This document shows, one piece after another, positions 28,728-35,391 of a stretch of 64,000 nucleotides of DNA. Position 1 is the stretch's first letter, and each line of letters starts with the position of its first letter. The notes below the pieces were generated by a model that did no database searches, was not told where the DNA came from, and was given only the letters and a program-made list of their open reading frames with translations. The position numbers and the translations under genes are program-made. This DNA is from Alphaproteobacteria bacterium (lineage in GTDB: Bacteria; Pseudomonadota; Alphaproteobacteria; Rhizobiales; GCA-2746425): the NCBI GenBank assembly GCA_024743215.1, contig JANSWZ010000003.1:310001-374000 (forward strand), read 5' to 3'.

Positions 28728-29729
28728 TTATTCGGGGTTACCTTGTTTGTCGGTCGCGCCTTTTGTCAATTCGCCAACAATGCTTTTCAGGCTGGGTGGT
28801 TTGCTGGTCAGAAAGGGCAGAGGACGGCAGACTGCCATAGCTGCACGGCCAACGCGTGCTGTCAGCATGCCATTGATCACGCCCTCGCCAAGACGGGCGG
28901 ATACCTTGGCCGCTAGTCCATGGCCCAATGCATCCTGGATCATGCTGTCGCCAGCTGATATCCCTCCGGTGAGTGCCAGATGTCCGATGACCTCACGGGT
29001 CAAACGCCAGGAACTGAAAAACCCCGGACGTCCGCCGTAAAGCTGAGACAAGCGGCGGATCAGGCGCATATTCTCAACCACCACAAACAGAACATCGATC
29101 AGTGCACGCGGGCTGATGGCAGTGACAATGCTGGTGCGCTTGGCTGAGCTGAGAATGATCGCATTGGCCTTTGCATCCATGCCGCTCAGTAGGTCACGTT
29201 CTGCAAGACCCAGCAGGTCTCGCCCGTCCATTACATTGCCAAGCTGGGCGTTGAGCTGGGTTCGGGCCTGAGCGGTTTCCGGACGGCCCTCATACAGGGT
29301 CAGGACGTCTTTGACCAAAGATCGCGCGGATTGCAGATCATTGCCTGCAAAAACTCTGGAAGCGCGGGCCTGCAAGCGATGAACCGATTTCAGGCGTGCC
29401 AAAGCACTGAACTCGCGAATAGCCATGGCCAACAATGCAAGGCATAGCAAAAGCGTCAGGGCCAGAGCGCTGTAACCAAGCCAATTGGACCGGGCAAACA
29501 GATCGGCAATCAGGCTATCCAGCCAGAGGCCGAAGGCCAGACCAGCAAGGCCGGTGAAGCTGGCCCAAAAAAGCCGCGCAAAAGAGAACCTGCGCCGCGG
29601 TGGTTTTGCAGTTGGCTGCGGGATTTCAGGTTCCAGGATTGCCGGCACCTGTTCGGGAGCTTCCACAAGGCGGGCATCGCTGAGCAATTGGGCACTTGGC
29701 CGGCGTGGTTTTGTTGGTTTTTGGGTCAT
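28728..29729 (-). CDS. ycjF: YcjF-family membrane protein (TIGR01620)
   Basis: This 333-residue membrane protein has a Pro/Arg-rich N-terminus and two transmembrane helices (about 52-75 and 85-105). The C-terminal DUF697-type domain carries ISPRALIDVLFVVVENMRLI, RLSQLYGGRPGFFSSWRLTR and GEGVINGMLTARVGRAAMA. It forms a conserved pair with the YcjX GTPase; ycjX's stop overlaps its ATG by 4 nt. In enterobacteria the pair is in stress regulons (heat shock, phage shock neighbourhood). The biochemical role is not established. Confidence 0.85.
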   Translation of the reverse strand: MTQKPTKPRRPSAQLLSDARLVEAPEQVPAILEPEIPQPTAKPPRRRFSFARLFWASFTGLAGLAFGLWLDSLIADLFARSNWLGYSALALTLLLCLALLAMAIREFSALARLKSVHRLQARASRVFAGNDLQSARSLVKDVLTLYEGRPETAQARTQLNAQLGNVMDGRDLLGLAERDLLSGMDAKANAIILSSAKRTSIVTAISPRALIDVLFVVVENMRLIRRLSQLYGGRPGFFSSWRLTREVIGHLALTGGISAGDSMIQDALGHGLAAKVSARLGEGVINGMLTARVGRAAMAVCRPLPFLTSKPPSLKSIVGELTKGATDKQGNPE

Positions 29730-31180
29730 GCCAGCTTGTCTCCCAGCAGAAACTCCAACGCCCGGTCGAGGCGGATATGGGGCAAGGAGAGACTTATGCC
29801 CTCAGCGGTTTCTTCCAGCTTTGGTGGTTTAAAACGTAGGTATCGCAACGGATCTTCATCCTTGCTGGTGCGCTCCTTATAAATCGTATTCGGGTCGTTT
29901 GGCAGATCACCGGGGAAAAGAGCGATTTCCTGAGTCCCGTCATAGGTTTCGCCGTGGGCAGTCTCTCCATCAAGCGGGGTTCCCAGTATGGCTGGTACAC
30001 GGTCGCCATCGACCTCCAGATGTGCCTCACGTGTGGCCCGAACGGCGGAGATGGCAATGGTTTCCGTATCCGCACCGGAGAATTTTACCCGCTTGGCGGC
30101 GTCCTCCAGCAAATGGTCCAGGATGGCTTCCAACCGATCATGATCGCTGTGATGCAGATGGTCGGCCTTGGTGGCCGCGAAGAGAACGCGGTCGATTTTA
30201 TTGCCAAGAATGCCTGCCAGCCATGAGTTGCGTCCCGGCCGGAAAGCACTGAGGACATCTGCCAGTGTTTCCTCCAGATCGTGAATGGAATCCGGTCCGG
30301 CATTGAGCGCATTCAGAACATCCACCAGCACAATCTGCCGGTCCAGTTTTGCAAAATGCTCTTTGAAGAATGGTTTGACGACAAGACTTTTGTAAGCCTC
30401 ATAGCGACGTTCCAAAAGCGCATAGAGCTGCGGTGCATTGACCTTTGTATCGAGCGGTAACGGACAGAATGTCAGAGCAGGGGAGCCCGCCATATCGCCA
30501 GGCATCAGAAAGCGACCGGGTGGCAGCATGGACAAGGCACGGTCTTCTGACCGGCAGTCTGCCAGATATTCGGTGAAACGCTCTGCGCCGGCCTGAGCGC
30601 TGACTTCTGCGTCTTCCGGCTCATCTGTGAGTGTCTTTAGAAAGCCTAACCAATCTTGCGCTAAATCCTGCCTGTCCGGTTTTTGCGCAAGGCGCAGCGC
30701 GGATTCAGACCAAGTGGCAAAATCCTTGTCGATCAAAGTCAGATCAAGCAACCATTCGCCGGGATAATCTACAATATCAAGATGGATCTGGCTTGCCTTG
30801 AAGATGCGTGTCCATACGCTTTCGGATTCAAAGCTCAGAGTGAGCCGTATTTCGCTGATCTGCCGGGTGGAATTTGGCCATTGGCGTTTGCTGACCAGAT
30901 CGCGCACATGGGCCCGATAGTCAAAGGTTGGAACGCCATCATCGGGTTGCGGGCGTAATGAGGCGCTGGCAATTCGCCCTCGGGCCTGCGCATCAAACAA
31001 GGCCAGCCGTCCGCCTTCCAGCAAATTATGCAGCAATGCGGTGATAAAAACGGTCTTCCCGGCACGGGACAGGCCGGTGACACCCAGACGTATTGTGGGT
31101 GTTGTGTAGTCATTCTTCAGCGTCTCAGCCTGATCGCGCGTTGCGCGGGCAGCTTCATCCAGAATATCCAAAAGGCTCAA
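29726..31180 (-). CDS. ycjX: YcjX-family GTPase-like protein
   Basis: The 484-residue P-loop protein has Walker A GLSRAGKT at 36-43, DIVDYPGEWLLDL as the switch/Walker B area and FAATKADHLHHSDHDRL in place of the NKxD motif. YcjX proteins bind and hydrolyse GTP and are encoded with YcjF. The start is TTG at 31180 with AGGAG 8 nt upstream; the ATG that overlaps this site leads to an early stop in another frame. Confidence 0.87.
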   Translation of the reverse strand: MSLLDILDEAARATRDQAETLKNDYTTPTIRLGVTGLSRAGKTVFITALLHNLLEGGRLALFDAQARGRIASASLRPQPDDGVPTFDYRAHVRDLVSKRQWPNSTRQISEIRLTLSFESESVWTRIFKASQIHLDIVDYPGEWLLDLTLIDKDFATWSESALRLAQKPDRQDLAQDWLGFLKTLTDEPEDAEVSAQAGAERFTEYLADCRSEDRALSMLPPGRFLMPGDMAGSPALTFCPLPLDTKVNAPQLYALLERRYEAYKSLVVKPFFKEHFAKLDRQIVLVDVLNALNAGPDSIHDLEETLADVLSAFRPGRNSWLAGILGNKIDRVLFAATKADHLHHSDHDRLEAILDHLLEDAAKRVKFSGADTETIAISAVRATREAHLEVDGDRVPAILGTPLDGETAHGETYDGTQEIALFPGDLPNDPNTIYKERTSKDEDPLRYLRFKPPKLEETAEGISLSLPHIRLDRALEFLLGDKLA

Positions 31181-31261
31181 GCGTCATTCTCCTGTATGGG
31201 CATCAGCCCTCGGCCTACCGCATGTAGGCACAGAAAGGAGCACTTGCAAAAAAGTTGTTTT

Positions 31262-31783
31262 CTAAAGATCGCGTGGGCGCAGGTAATCCACCAGACGAGC
31301 GCTGTTGGCACTCACTTCGGTCAGATTTGTTTCAAAACCCAGAACGGCTGCAGCACCAGAAGGAAACTTGTTTTTCAGAGCCTTGAAATTATTTGTTTCG
31401 TCGTTTTCGGTAAAAAACAATGCCGCATCCTGAATTGCAAAATTATGCCCAATCAGCAGCATGGTTTTGGGTGTGCCTGCTTTGTGTGCCGCTGCCGCAA
31501 TAATTTTGGGGAAATGCTCTGCCTGAGCGTCATACAAAGCTCGGGTAATGGTCAGATGCACTGTGCCATCCAGCAACTGAAGGAGGGGCGCAAGTGTCTT
31601 GCGGGCCCGCAAAGCCGTTGAACAAACAATGGCATCGGGAAGATAGTTTCGTTTGATCAGCGCGTCTGCCATTTGCTTCGCTGCATGCCGTCCACGTGCA
31701 TTCAATGGTCGGTCATGATCTGGCAATGCCGGATCACTCCAGGACGACTTTGCATGGCGCAAGAGAATCAAACGGGTCATCAT
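31262..31783 (-). CDS. sixA: SixA-like histidine phosphatase
   Basis: This 173-residue phosphatase of the histidine-phosphatase superfamily has LLRHAKSSWSDPALPDHDRP at the N-terminus (RHA catalytic motif). It also has ARKTLAPLL and the second catalytic His in LLIGHNFAIQD. In E. coli, SixA removes phosphate from His in phosphotransfer proteins, notably the nitrogen-related PTS. Members in this lineage may act on that system too (inference). It follows ycjX-ycjF's strand but lies upstream of ycjX with an 81-nt gap. Confidence 0.85.
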   Translation of the reverse strand: MMTRLILLRHAKSSWSDPALPDHDRPLNARGRHAAKQMADALIKRNYLPDAIVCSTALRARKTLAPLLQLLDGTVHLTITRALYDAQAEHFPKIIAAAAHKAGTPKTMLLIGHNFAIQDAALFFTENDETNNFKALKNKFPSGAAAVLGFETNLTEVSANSARLVDYLRPRDL

Positions 31784-31850
31784 GGAGCCTTATAGCGCGG
31801 TAAAAGCGACAGTTCCATGAAGTGGCGTATGAGCATGACCGGCCTGCCTA

Positions 31851-32690
31851 TTATGCCTCGGCTTCTTCGACCTTGGTTGCCAGTTTTAACTCTTCAAGTT
31901 CTTCCACTGTCAGGACGTAAAGCTGGTCCTTGGGGGTTTCCATCGCTTTGATCCAAAGCGCGGGGTCGACGCCGTAATCCACCAGTGCCTGCTGGCATTG
32001 GGCGCTGATCCGTTGGGCCTGATCCATGCCTTGTTGTATGCTGCCAAAGGTGCTGGGCGGCGTGTACACCTGGTGGACGCCAACCCAAGCCGTTTCGTGA
32101 ACTTCGCGCTCGACACCACCTGCAAACACAAGGGGGCAGGAACTGGCGCAATAGCCATTGGCAACAATCCGCGTGTTCATATCGCTATCGCGGATCAGTT
32201 GAGCCATTGTCAGAGCGTCTTGCACGGATCCGCCAGGGGAATGCAGGACGATTTCCGTGATGTCTTCTTCGCGTCCCAACAGGGCGCGTTCAAACACTTC
32301 GGCGGTGCCTTGCGTGATGGTGCCGAAGCCCAACAGCGCGCCCTTGCCATCGGGCTTGAAGATCATGGCGCTTTTTTCCTGCAAGTCCGTTTCAACATCG
32401 AACGGGGTCAGATCAGGGGCACCACGACCCGGACCGACAGGCCGTGAACTTGGCACATAGGGCCGGATCTGATCGCTCGGGCTGACCGGTCTCATGAACA
32501 CCGGTTCGCCCGTGTCTTCGATGCCGGCCAGTCGATCTTCATACTGCAGATGTCGGTAATCCAGCATCAGCACGTAGCCAGCGATGGACATCATGGCCAG
32601 AAAGACAAGCCAGAGCATCGCGTCCTGAAAGTGGTCGGACAGTGTTTTGACATGCCCTTCTTGGAGCGGATCAGTCTCTACGGAACTCAT
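31851..32690 (-). CDS. Membrane-anchored ClpP/crotonase-fold serine protease-like protein
   Basis: The 279-residue protein has one N-terminal transmembrane helix (about 25-44, AMLWLVFLAMMSIAGYVLML), a Pro-rich linker, and a ClpP-like domain at about 120-260. This includes TEIVLHSPGGSVQDALTMAQ (oxyanion Gly pair), VANGYCASSCPLVFAGG (nucleophile Ser region) and AWVGVHQVY (candidate catalytic His). The domain would face the periplasm if the N-terminus is cytoplasmic. Similar proteins are common and unstudied in alphaproteobacteria. It begins 3 nt after the 440-residue membrane protein gene, so the two probably work together. Confidence 0.75.
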   Translation of the reverse strand: MSSVETDPLQEGHVKTLSDHFQDAMLWLVFLAMMSIAGYVLMLDYRHLQYEDRLAGIEDTGEPVFMRPVSPSDQIRPYVPSSRPVGPGRGAPDLTPFDVETDLQEKSAMIFKPDGKGALLGFGTITQGTAEVFERALLGREEDITEIVLHSPGGSVQDALTMAQLIRDSDMNTRIVANGYCASSCPLVFAGGVEREVHETAWVGVHQVYTPPSTFGSIQQGMDQAQRISAQCQQALVDYGVDPALWIKAMETPKDQLYVLTVEELEELKLATKVEEAEA

Positions 32691-32693
32691 GTA

Positions 32694-34016
32694 TCAACGC
32701 CGCCTCGGTTCACGCTCATCGACGGGTTTTATCTGTGCAATCTTCGGGTCGTCTGGATGCATCTCATCGGGCATTTGTTCTGGCTGGTCTGGTTCGTCGT
32801 TGCTGCGACCACGGTCAAACTCGGTGCGGTAGCGGTCTCGGCGGTGGTCCTGCAATCGGTCAAAGAGCGAGAGCGCCTGTACCATATCTGCGGCTGTCAT
32901 CGTATTTTCAAATGCGTCCGGATCTTCTTCGCGGCGGATGGCGGCATGGACAATGCAGAGGATGAAAATCAGCACAGCTGGCATAAGATCGATGGAAATC
33001 GCACCGGCCCAGCTGGGTAAAAAATCATTGGCGTAGCGCAGCACGGCTTCAGGCGCAGATATGGGCACAAAGCGTTTCGGCTTAACCTCTTCGCGGCTGA
33101 GGATTTCATTCGCTGCTTCCGACAATGCCTCGCCCTGTCCACCGACGGCATCACGGACGCGTTCAACCATGGCGTTCTGGCGAGACGCCAAATCCTGGGT
33201 GCTGCCGTCAGCAACCGGGGCGATGAAGGTGCGCGTCAGATCATCGGCGGCCCGTTTTACGGAAGGCGCGATGGATGTTTCCTGCAGAGCTGAAATAACG
33301 CCTGTCAGCGTCACAGCTTCTTCGGAAAAGGCATCGCTGCGCGGCGCGATTGGACCGGAGGCTGATACCAGTCGCCGCATGCGATTAAGCTGTTCGCCGC
33401 CCTCTTCAAACAATTGTTTAACCGGCGTGCGGGAGGCTTCCACTTCTCGCGCCAGCCCATCCAGCTGGGTGGACATTTGCCGCAGTAATTGGACCACCGT
33501 GCCTGAACCAGATGTGCCTGTCAGCGCACCTGATGCTTCCTCTTCGCGGGACAGTCGCTGGAAACGGTCAGCGGCCAATTGAATGTCTGGCAGCAGGCTT
33601 TGGGCCGCCAATGCGTTGTTGTGGGCTTCGCTGAGGTCCTGTTGGTAATCTTCAATGGTAACGGCAAGATGCTGCTCCAATGCAGCGCTTCCAGCCAATG
33701 CTGCTGCGTTCAACCAGGATGACATGGCAATAATCATGACACTGCCAAGGCCGATGGCCATGAACAGAAGACCGCGCCCCGATGCTGAGCGCAAATGGGG
33801 CGCAAACCGGATCAGGTAGGACCAGAAGGCGTAAATCCCGACCGAGACGGCGACGGAATAGATAACCGCGCCGAAAAATACCAGATTTGCGGTGCCGTCC
33901 AACAAGCCACGAACACCCAGATAGGTGTAGATGCCGCTGGCGAGCGCCAGAATGGCCAAGGTTACCTTGGTCGTGGCTTCCAGTGCGGACACGCCATTGC
34001 GCAGAGCTTTCGCCAT
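32694..34016 (-). CDS. Large membrane protein of unknown function, partner of the ClpP-like protein
   Basis: The product has 440 residues. Three transmembrane helices lie near the N-terminus (about 14-36, 42-68, 83-110). A region of about 240 residues follows that is charged and helical (EDYQQDLSEAHNNALAAQ to ANEILSREE), probably a coiled coil outside the membrane. A fourth helix follows (about 350-372, GAISIDLMPAVLIFILCIVH), then a charged cytoplasmic tail rich in Asp, Arg and Pro. I do not recognise a named domain. The plan suggests a membrane scaffold or sensor. A ribosome site AGAGG precedes the ATG. It diverges from the FAD oxidoreductase gene. Confidence 0.7.
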   Translation of the reverse strand: MAKALRNGVSALEATTKVTLAILALASGIYTYLGVRGLLDGTANLVFFGAVIYSVAVSVGIYAFWSYLIRFAPHLRSASGRGLLFMAIGLGSVMIIAMSSWLNAAALAGSAALEQHLAVTIEDYQQDLSEAHNNALAAQSLLPDIQLAADRFQRLSREEEASGALTGTSGSGTVVQLLRQMSTQLDGLAREVEASRTPVKQLFEEGGEQLNRMRRLVSASGPIAPRSDAFSEEAVTLTGVISALQETSIAPSVKRAADDLTRTFIAPVADGSTQDLASRQNAMVERVRDAVGGQGEALSEAANEILSREEVKPKRFVPISAPEAVLRYANDFLPSWAGAISIDLMPAVLIFILCIVHAAIRREEDPDAFENTMTAADMVQALSLFDRLQDHRRDRYRTEFDRGRSNDEPDQPEQMPDEMHPDDPKIAQIKPVDEREPRRR

Positions 34017-34113
34017 TTTTGCCTCTTAAATCCCGTTCAAAAACATTCGCTCTTGAGCTTAAGCCTAAATCGTGGCGAGTTGTCCTTAAATTTTGTGCAT
34101 CTTGGCAAATTTC

Positions 34114-35391
34114 ATGTCTTATCCGCAAACTTACTATTCTGAACGGCTGCAACCAAAACCGGAATCCGAGCCGTCTTTGACAGGTGCGGTAGATGCAGAC
34201 ATCTGCATTGTCGGTGGTGGTCTGGCTGGACTGACACTGGCCTTGAGGCTGGCAGAGCAAGGGCAGAACTGCTTGCTTCTGGAGGCCGAGCAGGTTGGGT
34301 TTGGTGCGTCCGGTCGCAATGGCGGCTTTGTTACACCTGGATTTGCGCAATCGGTGGATGTGCTTGAAAAGAAGCTTGGCATCGACACGGCCAAAACCCT
34401 GTTTGCAGAAACGGTCAGGGGCGTTGAATTTGTCCGAAAGCGCGCAAAGGCCATCGGCGGGGTTATTCAGGGCGATGGGCAACTTAAACTTCTGCGCTAC
34501 AACGCTCCTGACACGGTTGAGCGTATTGTGCATCATATGAATGCGGTTCACGATCAGCGCTTGACCATATTGTCGCCGGACGCTTTGGCTGCACAGTTGA
34601 GCAGCAAGACCTACCGTCATGCTATCCATGATCCGCACACGTTCACGATTGACCCGCTGGCCTATGTGCAGGGATTGAAACAGCATGCTTTGGCAACAGG
34701 AATGGTGAATTTGTGTGAAAAGACACCTGCGGTCAGTTTGCAAAAGCAGGGGGCCAGTTGGCAGATAGCAACGGCGCAGGGCAGTGTGAATGCCCGTAAT
34801 GTTGTCCTGACGGGGTCTGCTTATCTTGGTCAACTCTATCGCCCGCTTGCAGGCGCGATTTTGCCGATTGCGACTTATGTCGTCAGTACGGATGGTCTGG
34901 GGTCTTCGCTTGACGATGCAATCCGGTTTCGTGGTGCGATTGCGGATACGCGGCTTGCCGGTGATTATTACCGCAGAATTGAGAGGGATCAACTTTTGTG
35001 GGGCGGCCGCATTACCACCCAGCGATCTGAGCCGCGCTATCTGGCAAACTTGCTCAAACGGCAGATTGAGGAGATTTATCCGCAATTATCTGATCTTCGC
35101 ATCCGTCATGCCTGGTCCGGCCTGATGGGGTACGCGGTTCACAAGATGCCAATTATTGGTGAGTTGGAGCCCGGTCTTTGGTCCTGTACCGCGTTTGGCG
35201 GGTATGGGTTGAGCACAACTGCAATGGGTGCCGAGATTGTCGCTGACGCGCTTTTGCAAGGTGATGATCGCTGGCGGATGTCTCAGGCCTTTGGCGCGCG
35301 ATGGAGTGGCGGTGCTGTTGGGCGTGCTGGCACGCAACTGGTGTATTGGGGCATGCAGTTGAAAGATCGCTGGCAGGAAAAAAGTGGCTGA
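34114..35391 (+). CDS. FAD-dependent amine oxidoreductase (DAO fold, PuuB-like)
   Basis: The product has 425 residues from ATG 34114; the frame is open 7 codons further without a site. An N-terminal FAD fold (ICIVGGGLAGLTLALRLAEQ) is followed by GFGASGRNGGFVTPGF. A C-terminal substrate/FAD segment is HAWSGLMGYAVHKMP...FGGYGLSTTAMG. The pattern (DADICIVGGGLAGL...ASGRNGGF) matches the gamma-glutamylputrescine oxidase / glycine oxidase group of the DAO family. It likely oxidises an amine or amino acid with hydrogen peroxide release. No polyamine genes are adjacent. Confidence 0.85.
   Translation: MSYPQTYYSERLQPKPESEPSLTGAVDADICIVGGGLAGLTLALRLAEQGQNCLLLEAEQVGFGASGRNGGFVTPGFAQSVDVLEKKLGIDTAKTLFAETVRGVEFVRKRAKAIGGVIQGDGQLKLLRYNAPDTVERIVHHMNAVHDQRLTILSPDALAAQLSSKTYRHAIHDPHTFTIDPLAYVQGLKQHALATGMVNLCEKTPAVSLQKQGASWQIATAQGSVNARNVVLTGSAYLGQLYRPLAGAILPIATYVVSTDGLGSSLDDAIRFRGAIADTRLAGDYYRRIERDQLLWGGRITTQRSEPRYLANLLKRQIEEIYPQLSDLRIRHAWSGLMGYAVHKMPIIGELEPGLWSCTAFGGYGLSTTAMGAEIVADALLQGDDRWRMSQAFGARWSGGAVGRAGTQLVYWGMQLKDRWQEKSG

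Follow-up and report, generated by a model that had tools for sequence, protein, structure and literature searches.

Classical ClpP is a cytosolic tetradecamer that is fed by an AAA+ ATPase, and the SPFH-NfeD1b protease acts with a Ser-Lys dyad. In SPFH-NfeD1b operons, e.g., PH1510/PH1511 and YqfA/YqeZ, the gene for a membrane scaffold lies beside a gene for a protein with a ClpP-class domain (PMC2636767). In the same order as the pair described here, the envelope protease JspA of Sinorhizobium meliloti depends on a second protein, LppA (PMC10659215). JspA belongs to another class than the ClpP-like protein of this study, because it is an M48 metalloprotease, and LppA is a lipoprotein. The pair reported here is real, conserved and, as far as searched, undescribed; the fold of its enzyme is ordinary, and its partner protein is new. 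No description of the pair was found in the literature that was searched, which mostly excluded subscription literature.

Both genes are located on the minus strand of the window, i.e., the whole stretch of 64,000 nt of alphaproteobacterial DNA that was analyzed, and the parts of the two genes given below lie on the same strand. The first gene of the pair (32694..34016, ATG start, TGA stop) encodes an inner-membrane protein of 440 residues, the partner, and the second gene (31851..32690, ATG start) encodes a membrane-anchored ClpP-fold protein of 279 residues. Both open reading frames were found where the initial annotation had placed them, and the stop codon of the partner gene is separated from the start codon of the ClpP-like gene by only 3 nt (32691..32693). 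A possible start codon of the ClpP-like gene lies in frame at the position of a 4-nt overlap in 24 of the 79 named loci with homologues. Downstream of the pair, on the same strand (28728-31783), genes for a SixA-like histidine phosphatase (our own reading), a YcjX-like protein (DUF463), and a DUF697 protein follow. They begin after 67 nt, but were rejected as operon members of the unit because these sixA/ycjX/ycjF-like genes are not conserved across 85 loci. Upstream and divergent are genes for an FAD-dependent oxidoreductase and a flagellar hook protein. A scan of 31100-34200 revealed no sigma-70-like promoter, which says little in this bacterial group. The assignment to a known defence system was rejected, based on the lack of a PADLOC match and of conserved surroundings in the 85 loci.

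Evidence for a unit comes from the distribution of the two genes. Of 297 genomes of the order, 57 had strong matches to the ClpP-like protein (58 places), the same 57 had strong matches to the partner, and none had a strong match to only one of the genes. Chance is therefore excluded as an explanation (Fisher p 1e-62 for co-occurrence, on counts that are uncorrected for relatedness). The inconsistent co-occurrence that had been named in advance as an argument against a pair was not observed. Matches were regarded as strong at E<1e-30 for the ClpP-like protein and E<1e-90 for the partner, thresholds that were set after a clear gap had been seen in the match lists; the next best matches had values of 6.8e-17 and 8.4e-28, respectively. 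The pair count does not include another 83 genomes whose ClpP-like matches were weak, nor 7 genomes that had weak partner matches only; two partner fragments at the ends of contigs (G016, G134) were assigned to their genomes in this count. In 56 of the 58 places the genes are adjacent on the same strand, with 7-474 nt between the match ends. The two exceptions are G210, in which the genes are on two contigs, and G203, which has an intervening ORF. The latter (L168 2456-3940) is sodium/solute-symporter-like and lies on the opposite strand, the only such case in the order sample. The occurrence is patchy, and the pair behaves as a unit: G004 contains neither gene, while G055 and G092, which belong to the same genus, contain both. 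Among 385 genomes sampled from the class, five had the strong pair, including the genome of the window, and according to the coordinates the genes are adjacent in all five.

A scan of named genomes with the partner yielded 568 relatives, the best 80 of which were kept. The ClpP-like gene lies directly downstream of the partner gene in 79 of these best 80 of 568 loci, and the exception is a contig edge. Clustering recovered the ClpP-like gene in 83 of 85 loci, and no third gene was common to more than 14 of them, apart from ORFs that were judged from their position to be shadows of the pair. The trees of the two proteins are correlated (mirror-tree r 0.855, 99 loci including some repeats of one locus), but this value was not used as evidence for contact because it is uncorrected for the species tree. 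Partner matches were also obtained on plasmids of Sinorhizobium (pSymB), Ensifer, Phaeobacter, Rhodovulum, Paracoccus, Shinella, and Rhizobium. In the three annotated plasmid regions for which both places were listed, a gene follows the partner gene; its annotation is 'ATP-dependent Clp protease proteolytic subunit' for Phaeobacter and 'hypothetical protein' for the other two, Rhodovulum and S. meliloti. The partner was matched in 58 Phaeobacter plasmid records, with sizes of about 205-290 kb among the matches listed, and on pP92_b of Phaeobacter inhibens (L221) the pair is flanked by an MgtC/SapB gene on one side and a gene for a lytic transglycosylase on the other. In S. meliloti 1021 the pair lies on pSymB at about 369.5-371.6 kb, and therewith the genes are tractable in a model symbiont. 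Eight new Rgs growth proteins are given with SMc numbers in passages of PMC7327166, the main text of which does not contain the string SMb2.

The initial annotation described the product of the second gene as a membrane-anchored protein of the ClpP/crotonase fold with visible oxyanion, Ser, and His regions, and all elements of this description held. A single transmembrane anchor is predicted from hydropathy (residues 25-43, 32562..32618) and coincides with a helix of the model (residues 17-54), with a weak charge bias at its flanks (mean K+R of 2.8 before and 2.2 after). The Pfam family CLP_protease was matched above its cutoff (21.4 bits versus 20.2, E 2.5e-4). In the AlphaFold2 model (mean pLDDT 89.3) residues 95-279 have the fold of a ClpP subunit; the best structural match was the ClpP chain 8ycx_I (VIA-align Z 16.2, rmsd 2.7, 164 aligned residues), and all of the 50 Foldseek matches listed are ClpP (E 1.6e-8). 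NfeD, SppA, and other crotonase-fold chains were not among the 50 matches listed in the structural search that gave 8ycx_I, by which they are not excluded.

The putative active site is highly conserved. The SPGG stretch of the oxyanion region (residues 151-154, 32229..32240), Cys181, Ser183, and Cys185 of the CASSC motif (residues 181-185, 32136..32150), and His206 (32073..32075), which lies within the stretch GVHQ (residues 204-207), are kept in 99 of 99 distinct sequences, despite a mean pairwise identity of only 40%. In an alignment of 44 sequences, the other members of which are 28-95% identical to the protein of the window, the invariant residues include S151-P-G-G154, C181, S183, S184, C185, P186, H206, Q226, and T252. 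Among the 99 distinct sequences, position 184 is occupied by Ser in 81 and by Ala in 18. A profile alignment with ClpP of Coxiella (3q7h) places Ser183, the candidate nucleophile (32142-32144), on the ClpP Ser, the candidate catalytic His206 on the ClpP His, and Pro253 on the position of the catalytic Asp of this ClpP. Ser183 and His206 were placed in register by alignment, and by this alignment the Ser-His pair, whose absence had been named as counter-evidence, is present. Thr252 (31935..31937), which adjoins the Asp position, is invariant in 99 of 99 sequences. No conserved acid was found at the Asp position, as acidic residues reach at least 80% only in columns 44, 158, 238, 242, and 264. 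Therefore, the active site is incomplete in comparison to that of classical ClpP, and the alignments define a Ser-His site with an open third position. The two invariant cysteines that flank the candidate nucleophile would suit an oxidising compartment; they are lacking in the two ordinary ClpPs of the same genome. The protein thus shares with the S14 family (PF00574) the fold, the SPGG stretch, and Ser and His in register, but differs from it by its membrane anchor, the predicted periplasmic location, the CxSxC motif, and the lack of a conserved catalytic Asp; in addition, the locus has no conserved AAA+ neighbour, but a dedicated partner with four transmembrane helices.

The CxSxC ClpP-like proteins of alphaproteobacteria, which presumably are those named COG3904 'predicted periplasmic protein', form the wider family of the ClpP-like protein. 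All 26 unpaired relatives from other genomes that were examined contain CxS[AG]C and the His, and CxSxC and the His are also present in the 99 paired sequences. In the unpaired relatives, however, no strong match to a partner gene was found, the motif does not have the form CASSCP, and residue 252 varies. In Jiella sp. LLJ827 a second ClpP-like ORF (L088 11303-13249, profile E 4.9e-21) is present a few kb away from the pair. The best NCBIfam match of the ClpP-like protein was to the ClpP-related head maturation proteases of phages (NF045542, E 7.6e-8), and matches to proteases were also obtained in PHROGs (PHROG 94). However, the 32.5 bits are far below the cutoff of 120 for NF045542, no conserved capsid genes are found nearby, and the protein is anchored. 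One CxSxC ClpP-like ORF (L167 2997-3539) has neighbours that by eye look like those of large phages, i.e., RNA-ligase-like and single-strand-binding-like ORFs.

The partner had been described as a protein without a recognised domain, and the library searches agree with this. It had no match in Pfam at E<0.1, in NCBIfam at E up to 1, or in PHROGs and PADLOC at E 0.1, and the best profile match in the PDB was unconvincing (E 0.33). Scattered and weak hits were obtained with an alignment of 42 partner sequences. The most widespread were DUF4034 in Pfam (6 of 42, best E 0.011) and HpsJ_like_B in NCBIfam (5 of 42, best E 0.0015), and the lowest E value in Pfam was 1.5e-4 for the ALIX V domain (2 of 42). 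Four transmembrane helices are predicted, TM1 (about residues 21-39, 33900..33956), TM2 (about 45-63, 33828..33884), TM3 (about 82-100, 33717..33773), which continues into an invariant SSWLN/ALAG stretch, and TM4 (about 338-356, 32949..33005). They are based on hydropathy, in the case of TM1 together with the charge pattern. The mean number of K+R is 2.9 before TM1, 0 after TM1, 3.2 after TM2, 0.2 after TM3, and 2.1 after TM4, which predicts cytoplasmic N and C termini and a periplasmic location of the helical part. This helical domain (residues 106-335, 33012..33701) is also present in the model of the partner, which is of moderate quality (mean pLDDT 76, pTM 0.60). The predicted helical stretch between TM3 and TM4 has about 230 residues, close to the 240 residues originally estimated for an extramembrane part. 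It matched designed bundles, BAR domains, ClyA, and chemoreceptor domains of the PDB with Z scores of 8.6-13.1, a range that is expected for any helical bundle. The residues invariant in 100 of 100 distinct sequences include W101, N103, H116, a Gly-rich loop (E159..G163.L.G167..G170.G172.V..Q180, 33477..33542), M213-R214, W336-A-G338, the intramembrane Asp343 in TM4, and P346. The mean pairwise identity is 0.60 for the partner and 0.40 for the ClpP-like protein, which indicates that the partner is the more conserved of the two and under the tighter constraint.

The gene pairing, the modelled ClpP fold, the conserved Ser, His, and oxyanion residues, and the predicted topology are the basis for our best explanation, to which we give about an even chance. 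The pair would be a dedicated, ATP-independent protease unit of the inner membrane that faces the periplasm. The ClpP-fold protein would be tethered by its one N-terminal transmembrane helix and would cut with Ser183 and His206, the active-site loop probably being pinned by a Cys181-Cys185 disulfide. The partner, with both termini in the cytoplasm, would put its helical bundle into the periplasm and might serve as a scaffold, a gate, or a presenter of substrates, thereby replacing the AAA+ unfoldase. We infer proteolysis, a periplasmic site, physical contact of the two proteins, and, as the type of substrate, unfolded or membrane-proximal envelope proteins. If this is true, ClpP-type proteolysis would not be restricted to ATP-driven cytosolic cages; a membrane-tethered version would exist in many alphaproteobacteria, including Sinorhizobium, Rhizobium, Bradyrhizobium, and Phaeobacter, and it would have a built-in partner from a protein family that is absent from the searched libraries.

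Several other readings were weighed against this protease unit. The pair resembles the SPFH-NfeD1b operons insofar as a membrane protein gene adjoins a ClpP-class gene, and the ClpP-like protein has a Pfam match to NfeD1b_N below the threshold (E 0.016, 15.2 bits, cutoff 40), so that the pair might be regarded as a member of the SPFH-NfeD (stomatin operon protein) or SppA group whose partner has diverged. However, Band_7 was found by Pfam neither in the partner nor in its 42-row alignment, the ClpP-like protein lacks the NfeD OB domain (no PF01957), and Peptidase_S49 (SppA) gave no match to it up to E 1. A conserved Lys for a Ser-Lys dyad was also not found in the 44 ClpP-like sequences, the best column containing 61% Lys, in contrast to the Ser-His of the ClpP type. 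In addition, the genome has its own SPFH-NfeD locus elsewhere (C3), with a Band_7 gene and an NfeD gene about 0.7 kb apart. Membership in the SPFH-NfeD or SppA group was rejected on the absence of Band_7 and of a conserved Lys and on this separate locus, and we regard it as extremely improbable. From the initial annotation, the two-gene unit, the anchored ClpP fold, the unrecognised partner family, and, within the searched literature, the lack of a published description were supported, the suggested role in membrane quality control is conjectural, and the likeness to stomatin-protease pairs of the NfeD/SppA type holds for the logic only, not for the partner sequence, as had in fact been stated. 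Crotonase-like folds support a varied chemistry, and on the Phaeobacter plasmid the pair is followed by the gene for a lytic transglycosylase, which would fit an enzyme that is not a protease but a hydrolase or transferase with lipids or cell-wall material as its substrates. This is improbable as well, since ClpP is closest in sequence and fold, with Ser and His in register, and the transglycosylase gene does not belong to the gene clusters common to the 85 loci.

Two readings deserve more weight, although each is rather unlikely in our view. The missing conservation of a catalytic acid and the higher identity of the partner would be compatible with a pseudoenzyme or binding module, in which the ClpP fold binds peptides or forms a ring without cutting and the partner is the working part; some loss of Ser183, His206, and the oxyanion glycines would then be expected, in contrast to their presence in 99 of 99 sequences and to the retention of Ser and His in all 26 relatives without a partner. 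With a similarly low probability the unit could be a regulated signalling protease, with the partner sensing the state of the envelope and the ClpP-like protein cleaving one or a few regulatory substrates. Its accessory and patchy occurrence as a unit (G004 versus G055 and G092) is in line with this, as is the C-terminal tail of the partner, which is predicted to be cytoplasmic and has a consensus with a recurring VTPL-type end. A precedent from rhizobia is the action of JspA/LppA on ExoR (PMC10659215). However, no regulator gene is conserved beside the pair in the 85 loci.

The partner also has distant homologues. In an alignment of 11 rows, two of which are near homologues, nine remote homologues are 15-42% identical to that of L161, and the columns that do not vary in any of the 11 rows include a Glu, three Gly, and the Asp within the membrane (D343). 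A profile search yielded no ClpP-like match at the remote loci L161-L165, and the genomes of the loci L189-L192 (G392, G402, G419, G354) had no strong ClpP-like match in the genome-level search of the class sample. At one of these loci (L190 2404-3381) the gene of the partner homologue precedes one for a protein that has a hydrophobic stretch at its N terminus and contains a HEIGH motif. This protein matches Peptidase_M48 of Pfam below the cutoff (E 0.0034), and the two genes may represent a second protease pairing. These few loci suggest that the partner superfamily is a membrane module that is used with different effectors. A more far-reaching version, which we consider quite unlikely, is that an ATP-free periplasmic ClpP-type protease is opened or fed by the partner via the membrane, perhaps by the proton gradient, with participation of Asp343 and the Gly-rich loop, and that the superfamily is a general membrane module coupled to different envelope effectors, i.e., ClpP-like proteins on chromosomes and chromids and, on mobile elements, an M48-like protease or type IV coupling systems. 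When plasmids were searched with three distant homologues, no new element type was seen among the matches listed, which came from the same genera as in the search with the main family (Sinorhizobium, Ensifer, Phaeobacter, Paracoccus, and others). The remote homologues of L161 (3775-5070), L163, L164, and L189-L192 lie in regions that look like mobile elements, several of them next to genes for type IV coupling proteins, integrases, or resolvases. In L161, the gene just upstream of the homologue encodes a type IV coupling protein (Pfam T4SS-DNA_transf, E 4.9e-26), and L164 and L189 contain, by our reading, TraG-like ORFs and integrases. In both L161 and L163, small ORFs that look alike by eye are present downstream of the partner homologue.
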